A DNA stretch of 38,494 bases from Candidatus Aquidulcis sp. (GTDB lineage: Bacteria; Chloroflexota; Anaerolineae; UBA4142): assembly GCA_020723345.1 (NCBI GenBank), contig DYJA01000063.1, positions 1-38,494 of the forward strand. Reading direction: 5' to 3'. Under the pieces are notes generated by a model. It was not told where the DNA came from and searched no databases. It saw only the letters and a list, made by a program, of their open reading frames with translations. Made by a program: the position numbers and the translations under genes. This document shows positions 6,580 to 29,357 of this stretch, in pieces (the stretch's first letter is position 1; every line of letters begins with the position of its first letter).

Positions 6580-7017
6580 TCAGTCACGCTCAGTTTGAAC
6601 ACCATCATTCTCCTCGGCGATTCGCTCGAACGGAGCGCGGGTCGAGCCACGGCGATGGTGTTCTTTTTGATTGCGAACGTATTCTACGACATCGTTCATA
6701 GCGCGATCGCCAAACGTCAACGCGCCGTAACCTTCTTGCCAACTAAAATTTTCCGATGCGTTCGGCTGATGATTCACATAGTGCGACGACGCGCCCTTGA
6801 AATGTTTGACGCAATCGGCGACGGCGATCTTGGGCGGAATCGAAACGGCAACGTGGATGTGATCTTCGATATTGCCGATCGCGTGGACGATGACGCCAAG
6901 TTCTTTGGCTTTGCCGAGAATTGTTCCGTAGATTTGTCGTTCCAATGACTCGGTGATCAAGGGCAAGTGTTGGTACGTTGCCCAAACGAGATGGTAGTGC
7001 AATCGCCAATATGCCAT
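6580..7017 (-). CDS. tnpA: IS200/IS605-type Y1 (HUH) transposase
   Basis: This is a 145-aa protein of normal length for a Y1 single-strand transposase. The HUH motif is HIH in NIEDHIHVAV. The conserved FSWQEGYGAL and the catalytic Tyr in VVEYVRNQKEHH follow. These enzymes cut and rejoin single-stranded DNA at hairpins. The start at 7017 is fixed by GGGAGGAG upstream; a longer frame starts inside the tandem repeat and is rejected. No tnpB lies nearby. Immediately upstream are a 14-bp tandem repeat and two cloverleaf palindromes, an arrangement like that of REP-associated transposases. It is therefore either a domesticated transposase serving the repeats or a plain IS200-like insertion. No frameshift is seen. 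Confidence 0.88.
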   Translation of the reverse strand: MAYWRLHYHLVWATYQHLPLITESLERQIYGTILGKAKELGVIVHAIGNIEDHIHVAVSIPPKIAVADCVKHFKGASSHYVNHQPNASENFSWQEGYGALTFGDRAMNDVVEYVRNQKEHHRRGSTRAPFERIAEENDGVQTERD

Positions 7018-7043
7018 TTTGCTCCTCCCGTTTTTGCGATGCG

Positions 7044-7099
7044 ATGGACGCCGCCGAATGGACGCCGCCGAATGGACGCCGCCGAATGGACGCCGCCGA
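7044..7099. repeat. 14-bp tandem repeat, four exact copies
   Basis: The unit ATGGACGCCGCCGA is repeated four times without change. It ends where the left arm of the first cloverleaf hairpin begins and contains the CGCCGA of that arm. It looks like local amplification of the hairpin's 5' half. It lies 27 bp upstream of the transposase start. Confidence 0.9.
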
Positions 7100-7207
7100 A
7101 TCAATTCGGCGTCTCACCGAGGTGGAAATCGGCTCAAGCCGATTGCGTGCGCGCTAACCCGATTTATCGGGTTTCCACCTGGTTAGCCCGCGAATTCATT
7201 CGTGGGC
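7094..7207 (+). repeat. Cloverleaf palindromic element, copy 1
   Basis: Hairpin A is CGCCGAA/TTCGGCG (7094-7111). A closing stem pairs AGGTGGAAA (7120-7128) with TTTCCACCT (7172-7180). It encloses hairpin B, AATCGGC/GCCGATT (7127-7144), and hairpin C, AACCCGA/TCGGGTT (7156-7173). Hairpin D is GCCCGCGAA/TTCGTGGGC (7186-7207). The copy is followed head to tail by copy 2. Confidence 0.85.
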
Positions 7208-7215
7208 GTTGTCGC

Positions 7216-7327
7216 CGCCGAATGAATTCGGCGTCTCACCGAGGTGGAAATCGGTTGGAAACCGATTGGCTTGCCCAACCCGATTCATCGGGTTTCCACC
7301 TGATTTGCCGCCGAATTTATTCGGCGG
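7216..7327 (+). repeat. Cloverleaf palindromic element, copy 2
   Basis: The architecture is the same as copy 1: A CGCCGAA/TTCGGCG (7216-7233), closing stem AGGTGGAAA (7242-7250) with TTTCCACCT (7293-7301), B AATCGGTT/AACCGATT (7249-7267), C AACCCGA/TCGGGTT (7277-7294), and D CCGCCGAA/TTCGGCGG (7308-7327). Hairpin D contains the last codons and the stop (7317-7319) of the PAP2 gene on the minus strand. Together copies 1 and 2 fill the 300-bp gap between the two genes. Confidence 0.87.
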
Positions 7328-8219
7328 AACGTTGTGCCAACCGCGCCGTCACAAACACCCACGGCGCGCCGAACGCAAACCACCAGCCGATGATCGCGTA
7401 CCGCGCAAAATTCATCGGCAACGCGTCGCCCAGGATCGGCTTGAGTACGACGCGCAAGCCCAAACCGATGCCGAGACCAATCGCGAGTTTGACGATTTGT
7501 TTCCACCACTCGCCCCGCGCCGAAAAGCGGACGTACTTTTCTTCCAACACCGCGCCGACGCCAAAGCCCAACAGCGCGCCCATCGTCACGGAAGTATTTT
7601 GCACGAGGAGAATCGCGGCGAGCGCGAGCGGCGTGATGATCGCAATCGCGAGTTTCAGCGCGAACGACGCGCGCGTCAGCCACGCGGCGACGCGCGGTTG
7701 CAGCGCGAGGTAGACCACGACGGCGACCGCGCCGATCACCCAGCCCGCGATCACATCTTGCGGAAAATGATCGCCCAGGTACATCCGCGCGACCCCGACG
7801 AGAATCGGAATGACGAGCGCGATGACCCACCACAGCCACGCGAACGCGCGCGTGAATGGTCTGCCAAGTTGCGTCGCGAGATAGCCCCACGTCACGATGT
7901 TTCTCTGCGTGTGACCGCTGGGAATGCCGTACCCCTCCGTTTTGATCGGCGCGTACAGTTTGTCGCTGACTTGATGCGGGCGCGGTTGCGCGAAAATGCT
8001 TTTGAGGAATTCGTTGGCGAATTCAGCCAGGAGGAACAGAAACGCAAAGCGATAGCCCAACGCTTTGTTGATGCACCAGTAGACGAAGGGGAGGAAGAGC
8101 AGAAAAAATTCTTCGTCGCCGAGGAAATTGATCGAGAAGATAAACTGATCGAGGATTGGGCTGCGGAATGTTTGAATCCATTGCACGACGCCGAGTCCCC
8201 ATTGAATCAAGCCGTCCAC
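7317..8219 (-). CDS. PAP2-family membrane phosphatase
   Basis: This is a 300-aa multi-spanning protein with the three PAP2/acid-phosphatase motifs: KSIFAQPRP, GIPSGHTQ and ARMYLGDHFPQDV (catalytic His in the second and third). About eight hydrophobic segments follow the usual fold, and a C-terminal membrane extension carries the length past that of minimal family members. Such enzymes remove phosphate from lipid or isoprenoid phosphates at the membrane; the exact substrate cannot be told. The start is GTG at 8219, with CTGGAGG just upstream. The stop codon lies inside hairpin D of a cloverleaf element, so the last residues (SAE) are repeat-encoded. Confidence 0.88.
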   Translation of the reverse strand: MDGLIQWGLGVVQWIQTFRSPILDQFIFSINFLGDEEFFLLFLPFVYWCINKALGYRFAFLFLLAEFANEFLKSIFAQPRPHQVSDKLYAPIKTEGYGIPSGHTQRNIVTWGYLATQLGRPFTRAFAWLWWVIALVIPILVGVARMYLGDHFPQDVIAGWVIGAVAVVVYLALQPRVAAWLTRASFALKLAIAIITPLALAAILLVQNTSVTMGALLGFGVGAVLEEKYVRFSARGEWWKQIVKLAIGLGIGLGLRVVLKPILGDALPMNFARYAIIGWWFAFGAPWVFVTARLAQRSAE

Positions 8220-15346: not shown

Positions 15347-15363
15347 AATAGTTTCGGCGTATT

Positions 15364-15405
15364 GTCATTTCGAGCAACGTTGTGTGTTGCGAGAAATCTC
15401 AGATG
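15364..15405. repeat. TCATTTCGAG-type imperfect palindrome
   Basis: TGTCATTTCGAGCAAC is followed by GTTGCGAGAAATCTCAGA, an imperfect inverted repeat of the TCATT(T/G)CGAG kind that is scattered through many bacterial genomes. Related starts occur at 28279 and 38254. Confidence 0.55.
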
Positions 15406-15409
15406 CCGC

Positions 15410-15519
15410 CGCCGATTGGAAATCGGCGTCTCAACAAGGTGAAAACTCGATCAATCGAGTTGGTCATAATCGGTTTCCAACCGATTTCCACCTTGCTGAG
15501 ACCCCGAATTCATTCGGGG
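15410..15519 (-). repeat. Cloverleaf palindromic element, copy 3 (inverted)
   Basis: This copy is reversed relative to the others. Its closing stem is the longest: GTCTCAACAAGGTGAAAA (15427-15444) pairs with TTTCCACCTTGCTGAGAC (15485-15502), with only two mismatches. It encloses AACTCGA/TCGAGTT (15444-15461) and AATCGGTT/AACCGATT (15468-15486). The outer hairpins are CGCCGATT/AATCGGCG (15410-15428) and CCCCGAA/TTCGGGG (15502-15519). It ends 7 bp from the alcohol dehydrogenase stop codon (15527). Confidence 0.87.
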
Positions 15520-15526
15520 GCGTTCT

Positions 15527-16567
15527 TCAGAATTGATCGATCACGACGACGCCCACGCCGCGAAAATCGCCTTGCGCGTACAACTCGGCGGGCGCTTCTT
15601 CGAGCGTCACCGTCTTTTTGATGAGCGCGCGCGGATTGAGCTGCTTGGACAAAATCATTCGCAGCAGCGGTTCGTACGCGTGCGCTTGCATCCCGTGACT
15701 GCCGACGATTTCCAATTCTTTCGCGATGACCGCGTTCATCGGCAGCGGCGCGTCTTTGTAATCCGCAACCATCAAGCCGACCTGGACGTGCCTGCCGCGC
15801 TTGCGGAGCGACAACACCGAATTGCGGCACGTTTCGCGCGAGCCGAGCGCGTCAATCGAAACGTGCGCGCCGCCGCCGGTCAAATCGTGAATCGCCGCCG
15901 CGACTTGGTTTTCGCGTCGCGCGTTGATGACGTGTTGCGCGCCAATCGTTTTCGCGAACTCGAGCGTTTCGTCTTTGATGTCCACGCCGATCACTTGCGC
16001 GCCGAGCGCGCGCGCGATCATGATTGTCGCCAAGCCCAAGCCGCCGCAGCCATGGACGACAACCCATTCGCCGGGCGCGACGCGTCCCTGCGCGACGACC
16101 GCGCGAAACGCGGTGATGAACCGGCAGCCCAGACTCGCCGATTCGACGAAATCCATTTCCTCCGGCAAGCGCACCAAATTCGCGTCCGCGTAACGAATCG
16201 CGACGGACTGCGCGAACGAACCCCACGCGGTAAAGCCGGGCTGAAAATAATTGTCGCAAATTTGTTGATTGCCGGAGAGGCATTGCGGACACGCGCCGCA
16301 GCCGCATGCGAACGGCACCGTCACGCGGTCGCCGATTTTGAAACGCCGGACATCTCTGCCGATTTCGGCGACGACGCCGGCGAGTTCGTGTCCCGGCACG
16401 TGCGGCAAGTGTACATCGGAATCGTGTCCCATCCAGCCGTGCCAATCGCTGCGGCAAATGCCGTTCGCTTTGACTTGCACGACGACGCCGTCGGCGGGCG
16501 CGATGGGATCGGGAACATTTTCGATTTTGATCGGTTGGCGAAATTCGCGAAAGATGGCGGCTTTCAT
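15527..16567 (-). CDS. Zinc-dependent alcohol dehydrogenase family protein
   Basis: This is a 346-aa MDR-superfamily oxidoreductase. Catalytic zinc ligands are Cys38 and the His60-Glu61 pair; structural zinc ligands are Cys90, 93, 96 and 104 (CGACPQCLSGNQQIC). The Rossmann motif GCGGLG (173-178) followed by VIGVDIKD, with an acidic residue at the end of strand 2, indicates NAD(H) rather than NADP(H). The enzyme should oxidise an alcohol or reduce an aldehyde; the substrate is not predictable. The ATG at 16567 overlaps the ywbE stop (ATGA), so the two genes are coupled. A cloverleaf element follows the stop. Confidence 0.9.
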   Translation of the reverse strand: MKAAIFREFRQPIKIENVPDPIAPADGVVVQVKANGICRSDWHGWMGHDSDVHLPHVPGHELAGVVAEIGRDVRRFKIGDRVTVPFACGCGACPQCLSGNQQICDNYFQPGFTAWGSFAQSVAIRYADANLVRLPEEMDFVESASLGCRFITAFRAVVAQGRVAPGEWVVVHGCGGLGLATIMIARALGAQVIGVDIKDETLEFAKTIGAQHVINARRENQVAAAIHDLTGGGAHVSIDALGSRETCRNSVLSLRKRGRHVQVGLMVADYKDAPLPMNAVIAKELEIVGSHGMQAHAYEPLLRMILSKQLNPRALIKKTVTLEEAPAELYAQGDFRGVGVVVIDQF

Positions 16568-16780: not shown

Positions 16781-19700
16781 TCAGACCTTCGAGGTCTCCA
16801 AAACCTCGAAGGTCTTTTTGCGATACAATCGCTCAAACATCCAGTCGAGCAATGTTTTCGCGAATTCGGGATTATCGGTGACTTGCTTGTAAAACTTGAA
16901 ATCCGAATCTACGATCTCTTGCAAACGGTCGTTGAGCACGTGCTCAAAAGTGAGTCGCGCGTTGTCGCGCGTATTCGCGCGGAGACTCGCTTCCAACGCG
17001 GGATCACGCGCTAATTGTGCTTCCAATTGGTGAATAGACGCCCGCGTGTTCTCGCCCAGGTTTGCGCCGAACCGTTCATTCAATTCGCGAATGATTTGCG
17101 AGAGCGGTTCCATATCTTCGGGCAATGGGATTGCCGCGCCCTTCGGGCCTACCGGTTGCAACTCCGCTGTGCCGCGTGGTAGTTTGATTTTTCCGCGTGA
17201 GGTCTGCTTGACGGTGTACGATTCAATGTCAATGTTGCGTTGGACTTCGACCGGCAATTTGTCTTTGGTCACAGGTAACTTGCGGAGCAAAAGACGACCA
17301 AATACGTAAAGCCGTTCGAGATCGGCATCAGTAAAAGTAATGATTTGCGAAACAAACGCATAAAGGCGAACATAGTCCGCGAGTTTGCCGCGAAATTCGG
17401 TTTGGTCATCTTTGGTCGCGGCGTTGTAGCGGTCTATCGCCGGGGCAAGCGCGGCGTGCAGTTTGTCTTGCGTACCTTTCGGGTCAAAGTAGATGTTGGC
17501 AAAGCGATTGATTTCGGCTTCCGTGTAGAATTGGAACGCCGACAATTGCGTTTGCAGATCATACAGCAAATTGGGGTCGGTGGCTTCTTTGAGCAGGGTC
17601 TTGTCGAAGTACGGCTCGAACGCTTTCTGTATATCGTCTGCTTGGTTCGCGAAATCGAGTACCATCGTCTCGTCTTTGTTGGGATTGATGCGATTCAAGC
17701 GCGACAAGGTTTGAACGGCGTGAACACCGGCAAGCCGCTTGTCCACGTACATCGTGTGCAACAGCGGTTGGTCAAAGCCAGTTTGAAATTTCTCCGCGAC
17801 GACCATCAAGCGATACTCGTTTTGCTTGAACGTCTCGGCAGTCGCTTTCTCTGGAATATTCTTCTCTGGCGTCGAATTCATTTGCGCTTCAGTGTAGGTC
17901 AAGCCATTATCCGGGTCTTTGACCGTGCCCGAAAACGCGACGAGCGCTTTGAACGGATGCCCTTTCTCTTCTAGGTATTTGTCTACTGCCAGTTTGTAGC
18001 GAACCGCATGCAAACGCGAGCGCGTGACAATCATCGCTTTGGCTTTGCTGCCGATACGATGCGCGACCTGACTGGTAAAGTGATCGACCATGATTGCCAC
18101 TTTGGTCGCGATGCTATGTTCGTGCAATTCGACAAAGGAGCGGAGCAGGCGCGTCGCTTTTTCGCGGTCGTAGCGCGGATCGTCTTGGATTTTCTTGAGT
18201 AGCATCCAGTACGCTTGGTAGGTCGTGTAGTTCTCCAACACGTCAAGAATGAATCGTTCTTCGATGGCTTGGCGCATCGTGTACAGTGAGAACGCGCCGA
18301 AGCGTCCGTCGGGTTGGCGCGTGCCGAAGAGTTCGAGCGTTTCGCTCTTGGGTGTTGCGGTGAACGCGAAATAACTCGCGTTCGGCAGATGTCCGCGCTT
18401 TCTCATCTGCGCGTTGATGGCATCTTCCGAGTCTTCGGCTTCGCTTTCCTCGCGCTCGGCTTCTTCCAAACTTTTCGCCGCAAGTACCGCGTTTAATTTG
18501 AATCGTCCTTCTCCACCCTGCGACGAATGTGCCTCGTCAATGATGATCGCAAAGCGTTTGCCTTCCAGTTCTTTGATCTGATCGGTAATCATCGGAAACT
18601 TTTGGAGCGTCGTGACGATGATCTTTTTGCCTTCCGCGAGCGCGGTTTTGAGTTGGCGCGATGTCTGGTCAATGTTCTCGACGATGCCGAGCGTTTGCTC
18701 GAATTGGCGGACGGTGCGCTGCAACTGTCGATCCAGCACGCGGCGGTCGGTGATGACGATGATCGAATCGAAAATCGCTTGGTCGTTTGCGTCGTGCAAA
18801 CTCGTCAGTTGGTGCGCGAGCCACGCAATCGAGTTGCTTTTGCCGCTGCCCGCGCTGTGCTGAATCAGATAGCGTTGTCCCGCGCTTTTCGCGCGCGCGT
18901 CGTCGAGCAGACGGCGGACGCAATCGAGTTGATGATAGCGCGGAAAAATCAATTCGTACGTGCCGGTCTTTTTGCCGTCCTCGTCTTCCTTTTCGATGAA
19001 CTGGATGAAAGTCTGCACGAGGTCGAGCATACTGTCGCGCGCCCAGACTTGCTCCCAGAGGTACGCGGTCGCAAAACCTTGCCACGAGGGGGGATTGCCC
19101 GCGCCGCCCTCGCGTCCCTGGTTGAACGGGAGAAAACGCGTCTTGCCGCCTTCGAGGCGCGTCGTCATGTAAACGAGATCGGGGTCAACCGCGAAATGCG
19201 CGAGCACGCGCCCGAACGCAAAGAGCGGCTCGCGCGGCTCGCGCGTCGTGCGATACTGCTTGACCGCGTCTTCGACCGTTTGCCCGGTCAACGGATTTTT
19301 CAGTTCGGCGGTGATGATCGGCAAACCGTTGAGGAACAAAACGAGGTCAAGCGAGTTTTCGTTTTTCGCGCTGTACTTGACCTGGCGCATCACCGAAAAG
19401 AGATTTGCCGCGTAGAGGCGTTGCGTTTCGGGATTGATTTTGCTCGCGGGGCGAAAATACGCGAGTTGGAATTTGCAGCCATTTGCCTTGATGCCTTTGC
19501 GGAGAACGTCGAGCGTCCCGCGCTGGCGAATCTCGTGCGCCAGCCGGTGAAAAAATTTGTCTGGCGCGTCGTTGCCGTATTGCTTTTTGAATTTCGCCCA
19601 CGCTTTGGGTTGCGACGCGTAGACAAAATCGAGCGCGTCGCGGCGGATGAGCATAAGCGTTTTGTCGTACTCGTCCGGCGCGCGTTTGCAATAGCCGCCG

Positions 19701-19822
19701 GGCACAAAGCCGCTCGTTCGCGCTTCGCGCGCGATGTCTCCCGTCGCACCGTCGGGTCCACCAGCAAGAAGAGATGCTTCGATTGTCGCTTCAAAATTCT
19801 TTTCGGAATAGTCTACCGGCAT
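16781..19822 (-). CDS. hsdR: Type I restriction enzyme, R (motor-nuclease) subunit
   Basis: This is a 1013-aa protein of standard HsdR length. The N-terminal nuclease domain shows the PD-(D/E)xK set Asp159, then Glu173 and Lys175 in ITAELKNP. The DNA translocase follows: Walker A SAGSGKS (323-329), DEAH (429-432) and motif III TATPK. A C-terminal helical domain binds the methylase core. It cuts unmodified DNA after ATP-driven translocation, acting in complex with HsdM and HsdS. GGAGC precedes the ATG at 19822. Other genes lie between hsdS and hsdR. The C-terminal FEVLETSKV comes from a palindromic repeat. The reading frame is intact. Confidence 0.94.
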   Translation of the reverse strand: MPVDYSEKNFEATIEASLLAGGPDGATGDIAREARTSGFVPGGYCKRAPDEYDKTLMLIRRDALDFVYASQPKAWAKFKKQYGNDAPDKFFHRLAHEIRQRGTLDVLRKGIKANGCKFQLAYFRPASKINPETQRLYAANLFSVMRQVKYSAKNENSLDLVLFLNGLPIITAELKNPLTGQTVEDAVKQYRTTREPREPLFAFGRVLAHFAVDPDLVYMTTRLEGGKTRFLPFNQGREGGAGNPPSWQGFATAYLWEQVWARDSMLDLVQTFIQFIEKEDEDGKKTGTYELIFPRYHQLDCVRRLLDDARAKSAGQRYLIQHSAGSGKSNSIAWLAHQLTSLHDANDQAIFDSIIVITDRRVLDRQLQRTVRQFEQTLGIVENIDQTSRQLKTALAEGKKIIVTTLQKFPMITDQIKELEGKRFAIIIDEAHSSQGGEGRFKLNAVLAAKSLEEAEREESEAEDSEDAINAQMRKRGHLPNASYFAFTATPKSETLELFGTRQPDGRFGAFSLYTMRQAIEERFILDVLENYTTYQAYWMLLKKIQDDPRYDREKATRLLRSFVELHEHSIATKVAIMVDHFTSQVAHRIGSKAKAMIVTRSRLHAVRYKLAVDKYLEEKGHPFKALVAFSGTVKDPDNGLTYTEAQMNSTPEKNIPEKATAETFKQNEYRLMVVAEKFQTGFDQPLLHTMYVDKRLAGVHAVQTLSRLNRINPNKDETMVLDFANQADDIQKAFEPYFDKTLLKEATDPNLLYDLQTQLSAFQFYTEAEINRFANIYFDPKGTQDKLHAALAPAIDRYNAATKDDQTEFRGKLADYVRLYAFVSQIITFTDADLERLYVFGRLLLRKLPVTKDKLPVEVQRNIDIESYTVKQTSRGKIKLPRGTAELQPVGPKGAAIPLPEDMEPLSQIIRELNERFGANLGENTRASIHQLEAQLARDPALEASLRANTRDNARLTFEHVLNDRLQEIVDSDFKFYKQVTDNPEFAKTLLDWMFERLYRKKTFEVLETSKV
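16783..16815. repeat. AGACCTTCGAGGT double palindrome, hsdR 3' copy
   Basis: The arms AGACCTTCGAGGT (16783-16795) and ACCTCGAAGGTCT (16803-16815) are perfectly complementary. The hsdR stop codon (16781-16783) overlaps the first base, so the last ten or so hsdR residues (FEVLETSKV) are repeat-encoded. Confidence 0.88.
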
Positions 19823-19872
19823 GTTTTTGCTCCGCGTAATTCAAAGCGCGAACTAGTGTTCGACTCATACAA

Positions 19873-19900
19873 TTGACAAATGCCAGCAGGGGCATATAAT
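19873..19900 (+). promoter_or_regulatory. Near-consensus sigma-70 promoter
   Basis: TTGACA (19873-19878) and TATAAT (19895-19900) are exact consensus hexamers with a 16-bp spacer. Together they form the best promoter in the window. It drives the rightward 111-aa gene and diverges from hsdR. Confidence 0.85.
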
Positions 19901-19923
19901 CAAATTGTAGAAGGAGTTATCTC

Positions 19924-20259
19924 ATGGATGAGAATCGTTCCAGAATGACTGGCAGTGATTCCGGCGTTGCGCAGTCGTTTCAGGCAATTTCAACCTTTCG
20001 AGATACGCCCCGCGTGTACGTTGGTGACGCCCTGCGGGTTGTTGCTTTTGATTACGTCTCAACTCAACGCGAGATTGCGTTGATCGATCAAGTGGCTAGC
20101 GCGTTTGGGTCCATTCTTTCCACGCCGCTGCCGCGCGCGGCATATCTGGCTAGCGATGGTTGGGTCAGTGATGCTGATCTTGCTCTCGTGGATCGGATGA
20201 GAGAGGTACAACTCGAAGCATTTTACTTGATGAACCCCGAAACCCGCTCGGTCAGTTAG
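19924..20259 (+). CDS. Small hypothetical protein, convergent to the MazF-like gene
   Basis: This is a 111-aa soluble protein with no recognised domain. The first 25 residues are polar (MDENRSRMTGSDSG). The middle has a strand-turn pattern (RVYVGDALRVVAFDY), and a helical end contains DADLALVDRMREVQLEAFYL. It is the only plus-strand gene between 5 kb and 28 kb. It has its own strong promoter and AAGGAG ribosome-binding site. Its stop codon lies in the loop of a terminator shared with the opposing toxin gene, and the two coding regions overlap by 8 bp. A role as partner or regulator of the neighbouring toxin or RM genes is possible but not shown. Confidence 0.65.
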   Translation: MDENRSRMTGSDSGVAQSFQAISTFRDTPRVYVGDALRVVAFDYVSTQREIALIDQVASAFGSILSTPLPRAAYLASDGWVSDADLALVDRMREVQLEAFYLMNPETRSVS

Positions 20260-20274
20260 CCGAGCGGGTTTTTA
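20241..20274 (+). terminator. Shared terminator with two stop codons in its loop
   Basis: AACCCGCTCGG (20241-20251) pairs perfectly with CCGAGCGGGTT (20260-20270), and TTTT follows. The 8-nt loop holds the stop codons of both convergent genes: TAG at 20257-20259 on plus and TGA at 20254-20252 on minus. Confidence 0.88.
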
Positions 20275-20689
20275 CTATCTGGTCGAAGTTGAGCACGCGT
20301 AACAGTCGCTCGTATATGCGCTGCATGATCTGCGGAGAGAGGTGGGTCAAGAAATATTGGTCGGGCAATCCAGTTTGCACCGACACGCAATAGATTTGAT
20401 CCGTTTTCGCGATCGAGTCCTTGTCAAGTTTGGGACATTCGCGTCTGGTAATGATGACATGCGGAGTGTAATTGGGTTTGCGGTGTTCTGCGCCAGATAG
20501 CGGAAGAATCAGGACTGTTCCCCGCAATGTTAGCTCCGTATTGTTGATCACGACGGCGAGATGGGGTTCTGCCATCGTCCGATCTTGGTTTGAGCGAGCC
20601 GCCCCGAAATCGAACCAATACACATCACCCCACCGCGGATAGCGGTCAAAAGTAAAATCTCTGGGTAGAATGTGGTATGGAAAAGGCAT
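20252..20689 (-). CDS. PemK/MazF-like endoribonuclease toxin
   Basis: This is a 145-aa protein. WGDVYWFDFG is the diagnostic N-terminal strand of the MazF/PemK fold. The core beta-strand AEPHLAVVINN and LRGTVLILPLSG follow, then VIITRRECPKLDKDSIAKTD and QIYCVSV. It is somewhat longer than typical (110-120 aa) because of an N-terminal extension (MPFPYHILPRDFTFDRYPR). It would cleave mRNA at short sequences. No antitoxin of MazE type is seen on the same strand. The gene lies 11 bp after the ClpP-fold protease gene, with GGAGC upstream, so they are likely cotranscribed. Confidence 0.75.
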   Translation of the reverse strand: MPFPYHILPRDFTFDRYPRWGDVYWFDFGAARSNQDRTMAEPHLAVVINNTELTLRGTVLILPLSGAEHRKPNYTPHVIITRRECPKLDKDSIAKTDQIYCVSVQTGLPDQYFLTHLSPQIMQRIYERLLRVLNFDQIVKTRSAN

Positions 20690-20700
20690 TGCGACTGCTC

Positions 20701-21810
20701 CTATGAATGTGTCACATTGACGCGGTCAGGCGCGTTGGAAGTACCTTCTGCTTGCCAGGGCAGATCAAGCCATTGTGCCGCAATCGTTTGCCTCTTTTGA
20801 ATTAGGGGTTGTTCTTTCTCTTGTACGCTAACATAAACCTCTTCAAGAACCTGACGACGCGATGTACTATCTATCCACACAATGGGTCTGGCAATGTGCT
20901 GTGGATTGTCCCCGATCGGTCGCGCGATTCCGCCGAACGCGGCATAATGCTCGTACAACCGCCACATCGTTTCCCATAAAGCATCGTCCGCGTACGTTAC
21001 AGGCAACCCCAGGTCTTGCGCTTCCTTCCATCCGATTCGATAATGGTGTGAAAAGAATTCGTCAGAGAACGCGTCGACGATCTTTTTGATTTTTTCCGCT
21101 TCGGTTTCCGGGTTCATGTGTGTTTTCAGCGCCTGGGCTGAAATCAATCGCGCGAGCGCGTACGATTGTTCAATCGCGCCAAGCGCAAGGGGATGCACTT
21201 TGTCGAACAACGCGGAATAGATCGTAGCAAGTGATTCCGGTGTATACTCCCCGCCTTCGCGTTTGAGGAACTCGATACAGTGCCGCAAGTCCTGGACCGA
21301 TATGAGCAGCGATTGGTTATTCTCTTTGGGCAACAGGGGATGCGTCCGCGCGGGGTCAACGGGACCTAGTTCTGACATATCGCCCATCACGATTTCGTTC
21401 GCGCCCATCGCAATGTGGGTCGCCGCGCTGTACGCCATAAACGGAATGAGCACGCGAAATTCTTGGCAAAAGTTCCGAATGAGTGTGATCATTCGCCAGG
21501 GTACTTCGCTTTCACCGCCGGTGCTGTGGACAAACAAATCAATCTTGGGAACGCGCCCGATGCGCCTCAATTGCGCGTACAGTTGGCTGGGGATGTCTCC
21601 CCGCACGATCACGTCGGGATAGGCAAAAAAAGTGATAACGCGCGAGTCGCGGATCTTTTCGATTTCTTGAATCAGTGCCAGCGTTTCGGCTGGCGGGGGT
21701 AGTTTGACCACCGCGCCGGGCACCGGGATGCTTGGTTGAATTGGCGCGGGACCAACGTGCGGAATGTTTGGGCTTGACGTTTGCGCTTGGCGTTTCTGTT
21801 TTGAACCCAT
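20701..21810 (-). CDS. SDH-family ClpP-fold serine protease
   Basis: This is a 369-aa protein of the serine dehydrogenase proteinase (SDH_sah, PF01972-like) group, related to ClpP and SppA. Key segments are the oxyanion region LFVHSTGGESEVPWRM, the presumed nucleophile Ser in FMAYSAATHIAMGANEIVMG and MSELGPVDP. The N-terminal 40 residues are polar and Pro-rich. No signal or membrane segment is seen, so it is likely cytoplasmic. The start at 21810 (MGSKQKRQ) is chosen because GGGAGG lies five bases upstream; the adjacent ATG at 21813 is possible. It lies between hsdS and the MazF-like gene on the same strand. Confidence 0.78.
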   Translation of the reverse strand: MGSKQKRQAQTSSPNIPHVGPAPIQPSIPVPGAVVKLPPPAETLALIQEIEKIRDSRVITFFAYPDVIVRGDIPSQLYAQLRRIGRVPKIDLFVHSTGGESEVPWRMITLIRNFCQEFRVLIPFMAYSAATHIAMGANEIVMGDMSELGPVDPARTHPLLPKENNQSLLISVQDLRHCIEFLKREGGEYTPESLATIYSALFDKVHPLALGAIEQSYALARLISAQALKTHMNPETEAEKIKKIVDAFSDEFFSHHYRIGWKEAQDLGLPVTYADDALWETMWRLYEHYAAFGGIARPIGDNPQHIARPIVWIDSTSRRQVLEEVYVSVQEKEQPLIQKRQTIAAQWLDLPWQAEGTSNAPDRVNVTHS

Positions 21811-21870
21811 CATTGCCTCCCTCTGAATCATATCCGAATCTGTGGTGAATGCAAGTGCGAGAAACAAGCA

Positions 21871-23274
21871 TCAACCTGGCATTTCTCTCACATCCATCTT
21901 CCCCGTCACCGCCGCCGAAATCAGCGCGGTGCGGTACTCTTTCAGCGTTTCGATGGCTTGGCGCACTTTGGCGATGAGCGCGTCAATCTTGGCAGTCTCG
22001 CGGTCGAGGTACGCGGCGATGGCGCGTTGTTCGTCGAGCGACGGCACCATTACAACGAGCCGACCTAATTCTGCTTGGTTGTATGTTGTGTTTACCCTTG
22101 TCTTGGAGGAAGAAAAAAAATCCCTGTTCCTGAGATTGTTCAAAAACATCTGATAGTATCGCGATTCGAATTTGGACAAATCGAATCTGAGTCTCAACAA
22201 AAAAGAAACGTGGGTGTATTCACCCTCCGCGCCGAAGTACGCAGTTTTTCCAACATGATCTGCGCTGCCGTTTCGCCAATTGAAAAGCAAATCGCCCTTG
22301 TGGAGCAGAAGCTGTTTCTTTTGTTCTGGGGTTAGCGGAGTTTTAGGAACATCGTCCAAAACAAGTTGCCCTTCTTTTGTCACGTTCGGAAGCGAAAGAA
22401 TGCAAGTCCCTTCTGTTTCGGTTCTGTCCAATTCAAGCGTTAGTCCGTAATTTATCTCGGCAACATGTTTGAATTGACGCGCTTCCCAATGCTTCGGCAC
22501 ATTCCCCAACCACGCCACGCCGGAATCTTTCAGTGGCGCGTTTGTGTCCAATCCGCGCGTAACCGCGTGGCTAATCAGCGCGGTACGTTTCTCCTGCAAC
22601 AGTTCAATCAGTCGCTCATTCTTTGCCACCAGCGTATCAAGGCGCGCGGTCTCGCGGTCAAGGTACGCGGCGATAGCGCGTTGTTCAGGGAGAGGAGGAA
22701 TCCAGATAGGCAAACATGCCAACTCGGATGGGTTGATTGCCGGATAGCCAACGCCGACCGAATGCGCGACAACAGTTTCGATAAATTCTTTGGAGCGTAC
22801 CAAAGTGTGAAGAAATTTCGGCTCGATTTCTGGCTTTGGGCGTAACACCGCAAACCCGGTCGAGACAATCAAATTTTCTGACGGATTTTCAAAATAGGCA
22901 ATTGCTTTGAGATACGTGCGAACCGTTGAAAGAATTGTGTCTCCAGCACGAACGACGCGACGTGCACGGCTCGGCGCGCTTTCAAAACGCATTTCTTGTG
23001 GTGGATTCGCGCCGCTGACCTCTTCAACGTTACTGATGTCAACGTACTGCAGTACAAAATCGGGGTCGGTAGTCTCCGGCAACGTTTCAGGATTCAAACG
23101 AACAGCATTTTTCAACCGCTTGACTTCCCAATGCGCGGGAATATCGCCCAGCCACGTGACGCCGGAGGGTTTGTAGGTGGGGTAGGGTTGGTGGCGCGGG
23201 CGGGAGACCTTCGAGGTTTCCAAAACCTCGAAGGTCTGAGATGCCGTTTTTGCGGCTACTTGATTTTTATCCAT
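21871..23274 (-). CDS. hsdS: Type I restriction enzyme, specificity subunit
   Basis: This is a 467-aa protein with two target-recognition domains, each ending in a conserved helix. Repeats frame them: VTWLGDIPAHWEVKRLKN (about 38-55) is echoed by VAWLGNVPKHWEARQFKH, and LPEQRAIAAYLDRETARLDT is echoed by LDEQRAIAAYLDRETAKIDA. The two recognition domains differ strongly, as expected for recognition of a bipartite asymmetric DNA site. Residues 14-24 (TFEVLETSKVS) are encoded by an inserted palindrome (23205-23237), so the true ancestral start may have been further in, near MxxP. No good ribosome-binding site precedes the ATG at 23274. Confidence 0.92.
   Translation of the reverse strand: MDKNQVAAKTASQTFEVLETSKVSRPRHQPYPTYKPSGVTWLGDIPAHWEVKRLKNAVRLNPETLPETTDPDFVLQYVDISNVEEVSGANPPQEMRFESAPSRARRVVRAGDTILSTVRTYLKAIAYFENPSENLIVSTGFAVLRPKPEIEPKFLHTLVRSKEFIETVVAHSVGVGYPAINPSELACLPIWIPPLPEQRAIAAYLDRETARLDTLVAKNERLIELLQEKRTALISHAVTRGLDTNAPLKDSGVAWLGNVPKHWEARQFKHVAEINYGLTLELDRTETEGTCILSLPNVTKEGQLVLDDVPKTPLTPEQKKQLLLHKGDLLFNWRNGSADHVGKTAYFGAEGEYTHVSFLLRLRFDLSKFESRYYQMFLNNLRNRDFFSSSKTRVNTTYNQAELGRLVVMVPSLDEQRAIAAYLDRETAKIDALIAKVRQAIETLKEYRTALISAAVTGKMDVREMPG
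23205..23237. repeat. AGACCTTCGAGGT double palindrome, hsdS N-terminal copy
   Basis: AGACCTTCGAGGT (23205-23217) and ACCTCGAAGGTCT (23225-23237) are perfect inverted arms. The element is translated in frame as part of the hsdS N-terminus and gives the same peptide (FEVLETSKV) as the hsdR copy. Confidence 0.88.
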
Positions 23275-23342
23275 TTTCGTAGTAGTATGAGACTAGCCCT
23301 GCGACAGATGAACGTCGGCTCCATGCCGTGTGTTCTTGCGGT

Positions 23343-24186
23343 TTATCCGCTTGAACCTAGTCTGTTTGAGGGCTGTACTTTTTCCAGCGCCAGCGGGTTG
23401 GAGTCGCTGTACCATTCCCCGTACCGTTTGTTCCGCGTATCGTCAATGTCCATAATCAACCGGTAATCCTTCGCTAACAACAGAAAGAAACGCTCCTCGC
23501 CCACTTCGTACAATCGCTGCAACGCCCATAAGTAGTAATCCACCACCTGAAGCCCGGCAAATTCGGACGGATAAGCCGATTGGATATCGGTTGGCTTGTC
23601 ATGAAACTTGCCCCACCGTGTCGCAAAATTGCGTTTGGCTTTGGCGATGGCTTGCTCCAACGCGTCCTTGCGCGCCACTTTGCCACGCCGCGCAAAAACG
23701 ATGCGATTTTCGTCCGCCTTGTGGAGCAGGTTGCGAAACAATCGTTTAATCAAATCGTCGTAGATGCCATTGGGGTCGATCTTTTTGCCGTAACGAAAAA
23801 GCGATTGGGCTTCGCGGACAAGCATCTCTTTGCGGCGAATGACGATTTGAACCTCGGGGTTGAGCCCCGGCAAAACGGCGAGGACTTCGTCTGACCTCTG
23901 GTAAATCGTTCTTGGCATGGAACGTCATCGCCGTTTTCTTCTCGCTCGGTTGAAACGATGGCACATCTTTAAAGTACGGATCGGCGAGCAACCGCGCGCG
24001 CAGCGTTTCCAATTTGTCCCGTGCAAGTTCGGGCTCGGGCAAATGCGCTACGCCGACCATAAAAAAATTCGAGACGCCTTCTTTGCCGAGCAAAACCCGC
24101 CCCTTTTTGTCGAACAGGGTGAGATCACCGGCTTCATCAACAAAATAGTGCCGAATGGTTTTCGATTCTAGCGGCGTTTCCGTCAT
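23343..24186 (-). pseudogene. DUF3800-family gene broken by one frameshift
   Basis: The first frame starts at 24186 (ATG, overlapping the hsdM stop as ATGA) and reads HYFVDEAGDLTLFDKKG, the YxDExGD signature of the RNase H-like DUF3800 family, on to MTFHAKNDLPEVR near 23897. The sense then passes to another frame, which reads DEVLAVLPGLNPEVQIVIRR and continues to the stop at 23343 with family-typical segments (VVDYYLWALQRLYEVGE). Joined, they give about 280 aa, the normal size. A one-base change near 23893-23900 explains the break. It could be a true mutation, a sequencing error or a programmed shift. The gene lies between hsdM and hsdS in the operon, a position where DUF3800 proteins are known near defence genes. 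Confidence 0.82.
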
Positions 24187-26216
24187 CCCGCCACCTCGCG
24201 CAACATCTCCAGAATTTCCTTTTCCAATGTCTTGATGTCTGTTTCGATTTCTTCCAACGCGCGCGGCGGTTGGTACTTGTAAAAGTACCGGTTGAAATTG
24301 ATTTCGTACCCAACCTTGCCGATTTCCTTGTCTTTCAGGTCGCGCACGTCGGCGTTGATCCACGCGTCCGGCACGTGCGGTTTCACCTCACGATCAAAGA
24401 ACGCTTGCGCGTCTTCGCCGAGCGGCACGTTTTCGGTGTCGCGCAATTCGGGATCGGGTTCGGGATTGCCGTCCGCATCGCGGCAAATTGCCGTGGTCTC
24501 ATCGCGTTCGGAGAGCGCGGAGAGAATGGCTTTGCGGAGCGCGGCGGTCTTGATTAGACCTTCGAGGTCTTGGAGACCTCGAAGGTCTCTCTCGAATTCC
24601 GCGCGGTCTTTGAACACCGTTTGCGGCAACGTTGCCAACCGCGCCAGAATTTCTTCTTGCTTCTTGCGTCCGGCGGCAACTTCCGCGTCGTGTTCCTTGC
24701 CCTTTTTCTTTTTGCTTTCGGCAAGCACGACAAACGCGCGCTCGGTCTTCAAGCGCGCGATGCGCTCCGGACTTGCCTGGAAATTCAAGCGCAGCGGTCG
24801 CTCGACCGTGATCTTGCGATAGCCGAATGCAGTCGTCGGGAAAGTCTTGGAGCGCGCGCTTTCGGCGAATACTTCGTGGCTTTCGGCGATCTGCTTGATG
24901 TGTTCGTTTGCAATTTCGTGCCGCTTGTCGCCTAAACTTTTTCGCATTGGCGTCCACAGATCGGTCGCGTCGATCAACTGCACTTTGCCGCGTCGCGCTT
25001 TCGCTTTGCGATTCGTCAAAATCCAAATGTACGTCGCGATGCCGGTGTTGTAAAACAATTGCTCCGGCAGCGCGACAATCGCTTCGAGCCAATCGTTTTC
25101 CAGAATCCAGCGGCGGATTTCGCTTTCGCCGCTCCCCGCGTCGCCGGTGAACAACGGCGAGCCGTTCATCACAATCCCGATGCGACTGCCGCCTTCTTTC
25201 GCGTCCGCCATCCGCCCCAACATGTGTTGCAGGAAAAGCAATTGTCCGTCGCTGATGCGCGGCAGTCCCGCGCCAAATCGTCCGGCGAAACCTTTGTCCG
25301 CTTCCGCCTCGACTTTTTCCTGATCCATCTTCCATTCTTTGCCGTACGGCGGATTCGTCAGCATATAGTCGAAGCGTTTGTCGGCGTGTCGGTCGTTTGA
25401 AAGCGTACTGCCGAATGCGATGTTTTCCGCGTCGCGACCGTCGGGGCTTTTGATGAAGAGATCGGCTTTGCACATCGCGTACGTTTCAGGATTGACCTCT
25501 TGTCCGTACAGATACACTTCGGCGTTCGGATTAATTTCGCTGATGCGATCTTTGGCAATCGTCAACATGCCGCCGGAGCCAGCGGCAGGGTCAGCCACTT
25601 TGCGGACGATGTGATTCTTTTTGAGCATGTCGCGGTCGGGCGCGACGACCAATTCGACCATCAGATGGATGACATCGCGCGGGGTAAAGTGTTCGCCGGG
25701 GTTTTCGTTCAGCGCTTCGTTGAACTTGCGGATCAATTCTTCAAAGATCGTCCCCATCGTGTGGTTGTCCACCACCTCCGGGTGCAGATCAATATTCTTA
25801 AAGCGTTCCAGGACGAGGTAGAGCAAGCCCGCCTCGTCCAGTTTCGTAATCGTGTTCTCGAAATCGAATTTCTCCAACACCTCGCGCATGTTGTCGGAGA
25901 AACCGTTGATGTAATTTCGCAGATTTGCGGCGAGGTTGGGCGCGTCGTCCAGCAGTTTTTCAAAATCGTAACGCGAGGTATTGTAGAACGCGTAACCCGA
26001 TGCCTTGCGGAGTTGTGGCGCGAGGTTTTCCAGTTTGCCTTTTAGCGCGGCGTTGCGCTGCAACACCTTTTCTTTCGTCGGCTGCAAAACGCAATCGATC
26101 CGGCGCAAGACGGTCAACGGCAAAATCACGTCTTGATATTTGCTGCGCTTGAAACTGTCGCGCAAGAGTTCGGCAATCGTCCAGATGAAGATGACGTACT
26201 GGCTAAAGTTGTTCAT
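24183..26216 (-). CDS. hsdM: Type I DNA methyltransferase subunit
   Basis: This is a 677-aa N6-adenine methylase subunit. The N-terminal helical domain (10-130) is followed by the catalytic domain with AdoMet motif I DPAAGSGGM (209-217) and catalytic NPPY (288-291). Then comes a long C-terminal region that interacts with HsdS. It is longer than the common 500-530 aa, partly because of an added C-terminal segment. Residues about 543-554 (RGLQDLEGLIK) come from an in-frame palindrome (24556-24588). The leader upstream of the ATG at 26216 is almost entirely repeat arms. The stop overlaps the DUF3800 start. Together with HsdS it sets the modification specificity. Confidence 0.93.
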   Translation of the reverse strand: MNNFSQYVIFIWTIAELLRDSFKRSKYQDVILPLTVLRRIDCVLQPTKEKVLQRNAALKGKLENLAPQLRKASGYAFYNTSRYDFEKLLDDAPNLAANLRNYINGFSDNMREVLEKFDFENTITKLDEAGLLYLVLERFKNIDLHPEVVDNHTMGTIFEELIRKFNEALNENPGEHFTPRDVIHLMVELVVAPDRDMLKKNHIVRKVADPAAGSGGMLTIAKDRISEINPNAEVYLYGQEVNPETYAMCKADLFIKSPDGRDAENIAFGSTLSNDRHADKRFDYMLTNPPYGKEWKMDQEKVEAEADKGFAGRFGAGLPRISDGQLLFLQHMLGRMADAKEGGSRIGIVMNGSPLFTGDAGSGESEIRRWILENDWLEAIVALPEQLFYNTGIATYIWILTNRKAKARRGKVQLIDATDLWTPMRKSLGDKRHEIANEHIKQIAESHEVFAESARSKTFPTTAFGYRKITVERPLRLNFQASPERIARLKTERAFVVLAESKKKKGKEHDAEVAAGRKKQEEILARLATLPQTVFKDRAEFERDLRGLQDLEGLIKTAALRKAILSALSERDETTAICRDADGNPEPDPELRDTENVPLGEDAQAFFDREVKPHVPDAWINADVRDLKDKEIGKVGYEINFNRYFYKYQPPRALEEIETDIKTLEKEILEMLREVAG
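24556..24588. repeat. AGACCTTCGAGGTCT double palindrome, inside hsdM
   Basis: AGACCTTCGAGGTCT (24556-24570) and AGACCTCGAAGGTCT (24574-24588) are perfect inverted arms three bases apart. The 33-bp length is a multiple of three and the frame is kept. Confidence 0.9.
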
Positions 26217-28338: not shown

Positions 28339-29232
28339 GTGGATCGAAAGCAAAAATTAGTTGATCTGATCAACCGTCCCGGAATCTTGATCGTGCCGGG
28401 CGCATACGACGCGCTCACCGCGCGACTAGTCGAGCGCGCCGGGTTCGAAACGGTCTTTGCGACCGGCGCGGGCATCTCGAACGCGCACCTGGGGCTGGCG
28501 GATGTCAGTCTCTTGACGTTCGATGAATTGTTGCGCGTCGTGACCCGGATGATCGAAGTGACGAAGATTCCATTGATCGTCGACGCGGATACGGGATTTG
28601 GCGGACCGCTGAATATTCAGCGCACCGTGCGCGAACTCGAACGCGCCGGAGTCAGCGCGATCATGCTGGAAGATCAATTGTTTCCCAAACGCTGCGGTCA
28701 TTTTCCCGGCAAGAAAATCGCGACGACCGCCGAAATGCTCGCGCGTTTGAGCGCGGCGTTGGATGCGCGCGTCGACAAACGAACATTGATCATCGCACGG
28801 ACGGACGCGCGCGCGACAGATGGTTTGCAGGCAGCAATCGATCGCGTCCATCGGTATTTTGAACTCGGCGCGGACATCGGCTTTATCGAAGCGCCGCTCT
28901 CGGTGGAAGAGATGCGCGCGATTGGCGCGGCGTTCAAGCGCAAGCCGATGGTGATCAACATGGTCGAAGGCGGCAAGACGCCGTTGCTTTCGGCGGCGGA
29001 ACTGGAGCGGCTCGGTTTCAAGATCATGTTTTGCGCGAATACCGTTTTGCGCGCGATGATCAAAAGCGTAAGCGATGTGCTCAAGGTGCTGAAACAAGAT
29101 GCAAGCCAGGCGCGCGTGCAAGAAATGATCTGCACCTGGGAAGATCGGCAGAGTCTCGTGGAAACGGATCGGCTGCTGAATCTGGGCGCGCGCTACGATC
29201 AGATCGCCGCGAACGAGTCCGCCGCCGATTAG
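28339..29232 (+). CDS. Isocitrate lyase / PEP mutase family enzyme (methylisocitrate lyase-like)
   Basis: This is a 297-aa TIM-barrel enzyme. The metal-binding DADTGFGG, then [15 protein letters not shown], whose KRCGH contains the catalytic Cys typical of lyases in this superfamily, and later RTDARA are all present. The length (about 300) fits 2-methylisocitrate lyase or oxaloacetate-type lyases rather than the 430-530-aa isocitrate lyases. A methylisocitrate lyase would split 2-methylisocitrate to pyruvate and succinate. The aconitase gene next door supports a methylcitrate-cycle role, but no methylcitrate synthase is in view. The start is GTG at 28339, with GAGGT upstream; GTG at 28333 is the alternative. 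The stop codon lies in hairpin A of cloverleaf copy 4. Confidence 0.82.
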
Positions 29233-29333
29233 AAATCGGCGTCTCAGTCAGGTGAAAATCGGTTGGAAACCGATTCACGCCAACTCGATTCATCGAGTTT
29301 CCACCTCATTGAGCCGTCGTTTTGAAACGACGG
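29224..29333 (+). repeat. Cloverleaf palindromic element, copy 4
   Basis: Hairpin A is GCCGATT/AATCGGC (29224-29240) and includes the lyase stop codon TAG (29230-29232). The closing stem pairs CAGGTGAAAA with TTTCCACCT (29298-29306). It encloses B AATCGGTT/AACCGATT (29257-29275) and C AACTCGA/TCGAGTT (29282-29299). D is CCGTCGTTT/AAACGACGG (29314-29333). Confidence 0.87.
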
Positions 29334-29357
29334 TGGGCAACGGCAAAAAACCTGTCC

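Follow-up and report, generated by a model that had tools for sequence, protein, structure and literature searches.

A nearly palindromic unit of about 115 bp, built of four hairpins, occurs in 66 distinct copies in the 6.3-Mb source genome (Candidatus Aquidulcis sp.), lies beside a Y1 transposase gene both there and in other genera, and is present at some sites and absent from the same sites in relatives. The units are probably REP/BIME-like, non-autonomous DNA repeats that are served by this subclass 1.2 Y1 transposase acting on single-stranded DNA.

The Element and Its Fold

The window, meaning the whole stretch of 38,494 nucleotides that was analyzed, contains four copies of the element, the first two forming a tandem pair (7094–7327) located 75 bp upstream of the Y1 gene. 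The features concerned are as follows (scores are from cmsearch with covariance model R1, described below).

6580–7017, minus strand: Y1 (HUH, single tyrosine) transposase of the TnpA_Y1 subclass 1.2 type, 145 aa; PF01797, 5e-23
7043–7098, plus strand: four tandem GAATGGACGCCGCC-type repeats, apparent copies of the left arm of hairpin A, by direct reading of the sequence
7092–7208, plus strand: element copy 1; 86.7 bits; DNA fold z -8.07
Parts of copy 1: hairpin A 7094–7111; closing stem 7120–7124 with 7176–7180; hairpin B 7127–7144; hairpin C 7156–7173; hairpin D 7186–7207
7214–7329, plus strand: element copy 2, in tandem with copy 1; 105 bits; DNA fold z -7.92
15407–15521, minus strand: element copy 3; 125.4 bits; DNA fold z -8.43
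29221–29335, plus strand: element copy 4; 122.4 bits; DNA fold z -6.58

The unit opens with hairpin A, followed across a linker by a closing stem (AGGTG with CACCT) around hairpins B and C; after a second linker comes hairpin D. Only 2–4 nt separate the stems. A sequence-only reading of the window had described these four copies with hairpins A to D, and all were recovered where it had placed them, with folding energies as DNA of -32.7 to -39.9 kcal/mol, z of -6.6 to -8.4 and no shuffle of equal energy. The particulars it gave for the stems were borne out as well, namely ACCCGA/TCGGGT for C in two copies and ACTCGA/TCGAGT in two, four different D sequences and three forms of the A stem. Since the whole unit is nearly palindromic, both strands fold; the copy at 7214–7329 also has an alternative fold in which A is paired to D.

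All four copies lie close to genes. The D end of copy 2 overlaps the 3′ end of a PAP2 gene (7317–8219, minus strand), copy 3 is immediately downstream of an ADH gene (15527–16567, minus strand), and copy 4 overlaps the stop codon of a PEP-mutase-family gene that ends at 29232 on the plus strand. The GAATGGACGCCGCC-type repeats sit between the element and the Y1 start codon, and similar, degenerate repeats of the CCCGATT type occur beside the element in a related genome (G013). A different repeat, TCATTTCGAGCAACG..CGAGAAATCTC, occupies 15362–15405 between a glycosyltransferase gene and copy 3, and similar arms flank several other copies of the element. Elsewhere in the window, a Type I restriction-modification island (16781–26216), whose genes we take from reading to be hsdR, hsdS and hsdM, is missing in the sister genome G001, which has 18 bp between the two flanking genes.

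The sequence-only reading knew of no named element with this four-hairpin plan. That is also the outcome of a search of Rfam, where no family reached gathering and weak matches stayed at chance level, and of a search in the text of open-access articles.

A Y1 Transposase of the Subclass 1.2 Type

The protein encoded at 6580–7017 carries HIH at residues 53–55, Y113, Q117 and HH at 120–121, within the motif YVRNQKEHH. It scores 78 bits against the IS200 transposase profile NF033573 (cut-off 55), and the TnpA proteins of IS608 and ISDra2 are among its phmmer matches in solved structures. Across an alignment of 29 homologues there is no variation in the HUH histidines, in W-Q, or in the tyrosine, Q and final H, from which the motif Y---Q--HH is read. 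According to the text of the work by Quentin et al. that described it in 2018, Y---Q--HH is the signature of TnpA_Y1 subclass 1.2, a group near the IS200 transposases that lacks the properties of an IS and any associated DNA structure, with low copy number, no typical terminal IS200 structures and a distribution mostly in Cyanobacteria and Bacteroidetes (PMC6006769). The window protein has this signature together with HUH, and its gene is present once in the source genome, a low copy number as in the subclass. A further trait of the subclass is a conserved C-terminal domain behind the core; in the alignment, about 20 partly conserved residues come after HH.

Identity as a RAYT (TnpA_REP) was considered and rejected: the gene does not match the REP_Tyr_transpos profile NF047646, which matches 12 other places in the genome, and the protein has Y---Q--HH in place of the Y---NP motif. 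The sequence-only reading had missed this neighboring gene, and its interpretation found only partial support; it is the gene that places the element in the REP/REPtron kind.

Copies in the Source Genome and in Relatives

R1 was built from 18 copies with the structure stated in advance. It was used in place of RNAalifold, which gave a poor structure for 37 copies aligned with MAFFT because their spacers vary in length. A covariance search of this kind, over the genome and its relatives, had been proposed from the sequence, along with the rule that the idea should fall if no further copies existed. The search gave 130 matches in the source genome with both strands counted, corresponding to the 66 distinct copies, and more in relatives, where 20 of 79 had a match at E 1e-5. 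Within its own family, genomes carried up to at least 47 matches (both strands), while other families of the class mostly gave none, a count in which search filters lose weak matches. Many dispersed intergenic copies are a criterion for REPs, and only 3 of the 66 copies here are intragenic.

Some copies have been modified internally. At four loci (L187, L198, L199 and L200), a CCTGAGCnnAGnCGAAGG-type hairpin, another repeat common in bacteria, partly replaces hairpin B or C, and at L029 and L043 a different small structured insert lies within a hairpin loop.

Adjacency to Y1 Genes

The arrangement seen in the window recurs elsewhere. In four genomes (G000, G010, G013 and G007), the element lies less than 100 bp upstream of a Y1 gene whose proteins are 79–82% identical, and these loci have no nucleotide similarity outside the gene and the element and differ in gene neighborhood. 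Elements occur on both sides of the Y1 gene in G013, G024 (two per side) and G085. More distant Y1 homologues, of 37–62% identity, also have R1 elements beside the gene, in G024, G085, G162, G232 and others. A tandem array of 11 copies with a 139-bp period ends about 100 bp from the Y1 gene of G281; 2 kb beyond that gene lies a CRISPR-like array of about 61-bp period with the repeat GTATTCCCCACACGCGTGGGGGTGAACCG (L278, 11455–13954).

Adjacency was also measured independently of sequence, with a scanner whose criteria were four hairpins and a closing stem, applied within 400 bp of 50 Y1 genes from across the class. With strict settings, the 38 kb around Y1 genes held 25 structures and the 178 kb of control loci held 2, an enrichment of about 58-fold, with structures at 17 of the 50 loci. 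Looser settings gave 42 against 15 in controls, at 26 loci, and when perfect stems were demanded, the counts were 16 in 47 kb near Y1 genes and none in 178 kb. About half of the 50 loci had no four-hairpin structure, even under the looser settings. Outside Chloroflexota the enrichment was weaker, and 6 structures in 61 kb near Y1 genes against 1 in 151 kb far from them were counted with Chloroflexota included.

R1 itself had no match near the class 2, REP-type transposase genes of the source genome. The generic scanner did report hairpin clusters beside two of them, so Y1-linked hairpin clusters are in part a general theme and the four-hairpin plan is not all that the scanner responds to. Strict co-occurrence of element and Y1 gene across genomes was looked for among the 79 relatives and rejected. 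G004 has at least 47 R1 matches and no Y1 match, and the Y1 protein of G001 is only 50% identical and has no R1 match beside its gene; loci of this kind may, however, lie in assembly gaps.

Presence, Absence and Composite Elements

Sites with and without the element can be recognized between relatives. One copy lies in-frame inside a membrane-protein gene of G000 (C111:103464), and the orthologues in G001 and G002 are without it. In a gene that we read from its protein as RluD-like (L195 2616–3704, G000:C70), the in-frame element of G000 and G009 sits at one position and that of G001 and G006 at a different one, and the gene is free of it in G003, G004, G008, G012 and G013.

The clearest recent moves are those of larger composites, in which copies are carried passively inside unrelated inverted-repeat elements. 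At L012 (3160–3330, G000:C108) and L029 (2960–3170, G000:C11), copies are nested in a MITE-like unit that has GGGTGTGCGTCA at its ends and is bordered by target duplications of 9 bp (AAATGGCGA and GCGGTTGCG). At L027 (2870–3140, G000:C128), a unit with GACTCTGTTGGCGAA ends carries one copy and has inserted into hairpin A of another, with a 7-bp duplication, ATAGAAT. The sister species G001 has eight near-identical copies (L214–L221) inside composites of 200–340 bp with outer arms CAGAAACTTG/CAAGTTTCTG and differing flanks, which is a recent amplification. An element-only insertion with unambiguous junctions was not found among the source genome and the relatives compared.

Cases such as these would suit a unit that is only the core of MITE-like elements, with DDE transposases acting on the outer TIRs and the Y1 gene a bystander in repeat-rich places. 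Many copies, however, including those at 7092–7329 and 29221 in the window, have no common outer repeat around them, and it is the core that is common to the groups, whereas the outer repeats differ between them. Hitchhiking would also leave unexplained why, in many genera, Y1 genes have four-hairpin units on their flanks that are unrelated in sequence. This explanation, which has the composites in its favor, is on the whole unlikely.

Covariation and the Form under Selection

When MAFFT aligned the copies without regard to structure, 12 pairs changed on both sides against 7.0 in shuffles, and two-sided change cells numbered 37 against 10.9; the model-fitted alignment of 97 distinct rows had 600 such cells against 195, all of these being comparisons in which related sequences can beat shuffles even without structure. 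Because kinship alone can have this effect, changes between orthologous copies are the better evidence for covariation. Hairpin C of one orthologous pair reads CGATTCATCG in one of the two genomes compared (G000 and G001) but CGGTTTACCG in its counterpart, and a C-G pair in a hairpin D stem has become T-A between the same genomes. The claim that the stems change and yet stay paired therefore holds for the hairpins, where pairing across copies is 98–100% in A, B, C and the lower half of D. It does not extend to the closing stem, which is conserved as AGGTG/CACCT and shows no covariation within the element family of the source genome. In other families the closing stems have different sequences that are still complementary, and this, together with the complementarity seen here, suggests that the closing stem is paired.

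Some copies occupy orthologous sites in G000 and G001, which makes them old, and their outer flanks have diverged more than the element. Persistence of this kind, with compensatory changes, would suit a DNA structure that the host has co-opted for a chromosomal function, as a protein docking or supercoiling site, and that the Y1 enzyme copied long ago; such a role has been proposed for BIMEs. Orthologous sites are often without a copy, however, and gene conversion among copies could equally keep them alike, which leaves co-option by the host a decidedly unlikely explanation.

The gene context of the 66 copies was taken from a simple codon-usage gene finder, which placed 39 between tandem genes, 15 between divergent genes, 1 between convergent genes, 3 within genes and 8 at contig ends or with a neighbor on one side only. 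Both neighbors are thus known for 55 intergenic copies. With 39 of the 55 between co-directional genes, most of these copies would be transcribed, and covarying stems are what a structured RNA in untranslated regions would have, be it a leader, a processing element or a stability element. Selection on RNA should favor G-U pairs, but on the presumed transcribed strand of 30 copies between co-directional genes there were 12 G-U cells against 29 A-C cells. The divergent and convergent counts also tell against an RNA, as do the occurrence of copies in both orientations, the in-frame copies within proteins and the lack of an Rfam family, so that an RNA role is very improbable. A terminator or 3′-end role was likewise rejected, as convergent spacers hold only 1 of the 55, and the element does not behave as a 3′-end RNA element. 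The absence of a G-U excess and the tandem and divergent, not convergent, context favor action as DNA rather than RNA. The earlier proposal that a folded strand, RNA or single-stranded DNA, is what is kept can thus be narrowed toward DNA, but covariation in palindromes is by itself also compatible with selection as dyad-symmetric duplex DNA.

Two window sites involve a gene as well as the element. G001, G002 and G004 lack both copy 3 and the ADH gene, and their flanking genes lie almost end to end there; G002, G004 and G012 lack copy 4 together with the PEP-mutase-family gene. These sites, with the element directly 3′ of a single gene, prompted a reading as attC-like cassettes, in which a site-specific recombinase would insert gene and element as one unit, but it was rejected and deserves hardly any credence, since the 66 copies keep no consistent gene-then-element order or orientation, the flank at 15.3 kb holds another repeat and several events are therefore likely, and an integron integrase was not noticed within the window.

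Comparison with Known Systems

The closest parallel is with the REPtrons. The article texts describe REP, BIME and REPIN sequences with their RAYTs as tens of dispersed intergenic palindromes, alone or in tandem and sometimes in-frame in genes, beside a single-copy Y1 HUH gene (PMC3733652, PMC6006769, PMC8266576). The present element likewise occurs as tens of dispersed, mostly intergenic copies, has a single-copy Y1 gene beside it and can sit in-frame. It differs from REPs in having four hairpins in a closed plan of about 115 bp, where a REP has one or two, with a single-hairpin unit of 20–40 bp, and apparently in lacking a GTAG or CGTC foot at every hairpin. No GTAG-like guide tetranucleotide was identified in the element copies; many of them have GTGG or GTGA in front of hairpin B and a CGTC that spans the end of hairpin A, with no foot constant at all hairpins. 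Its partner protein is of class 1 (Y---Q--HH), unlike the class 2 RAYTs (Y---NP). Known REPs are described as preferring convergent and unidirectional spacers (PMC3733652), whereas this element is depleted between convergent genes.

With the IS200/IS605 elements of subclass 1.1 (IS608 and ISDra2), the system shares a homologous class 1 TnpA, the same catalytic residues and hairpin ends read as a single strand. It differs in that the Y1 gene is single-copy here, whereas IS200/IS605 elements have mobile copies of theirs, that many copies of the element are without a gene, and that multi-hairpin units flank the gene in place of one subterminal hairpin at each end (LE and RE). Further relatives in kind are the TIRtrons, whose Y1 (TIRYT) genes are described as flanked by unusual self-complementary repeats that recur at other places of the genome (PMC3733652), and class 3 TnpA_Y1, whose atypical structures can reach about 600 copies (PMC6006769). 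As in these, unusual self-complementary repeats flank the Y1 gene here and recur in the genome; their proteins belong to other subclasses, and the article text has no four-hairpin plan.

Rickettsia palindromic elements and ERIC/MITEs are palindromic repeats of about 100–150 bp, some of them in-frame in genes, and the in-frame insertions in the RluD-like gene resemble the Rickettsia elements. Their structure differs from that of the four-hairpin element, and we know of no Y1 partner gene for the Rickettsia palindromic elements.

A Proposed Mechanism and Its Meaning

In the mechanism that we propose, the Y1/HUH transposase encoded beside the units would recognize the hairpins in the single-stranded state, for example during replication, would cut next to them and would rejoin the strand, so that copies could spread between genes; some copies would additionally be carried passively in unrelated inverted-repeat elements. 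Cutting at the hairpins is predicted from the enzyme's family, and this enzyme, rather than another, would be the mover of the unit. A REPtron-like pair has its weak points in the patchy co-occurrence, the missing guide tetranucleotide and the want of a clean element-only insertion. It is nevertheless the simplest account to take in the architecture, an adjacency that is conserved across genera whose hairpins are unrelated in sequence, and a gene present only once.

The element is thus likely the DNA partner that subclass 1.2 had been missing until now. It is conceivable, and we suggest this more tentatively, that it represents a third system of single-stranded DNA transposition beside IS200/IS605 and the REPtrons. 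In such a system, subclass 1.2 enzymes would act on a composite, cloverleaf-like single-stranded DNA, whose closed inner hairpin pair and two flanking hairpins form one transposition unit, and non-autonomous copies would have spread across the Anaerolineae and perhaps other phyla.

The element gives subclass 1.2 a concrete candidate substrate, with which the activity of these enzymes becomes directly testable. It would widen the idea of REPs from repeats of one or two hairpins to a unit of four, and its copies provide a natural set of compensatory changes that shows how such DNA folds evolve.
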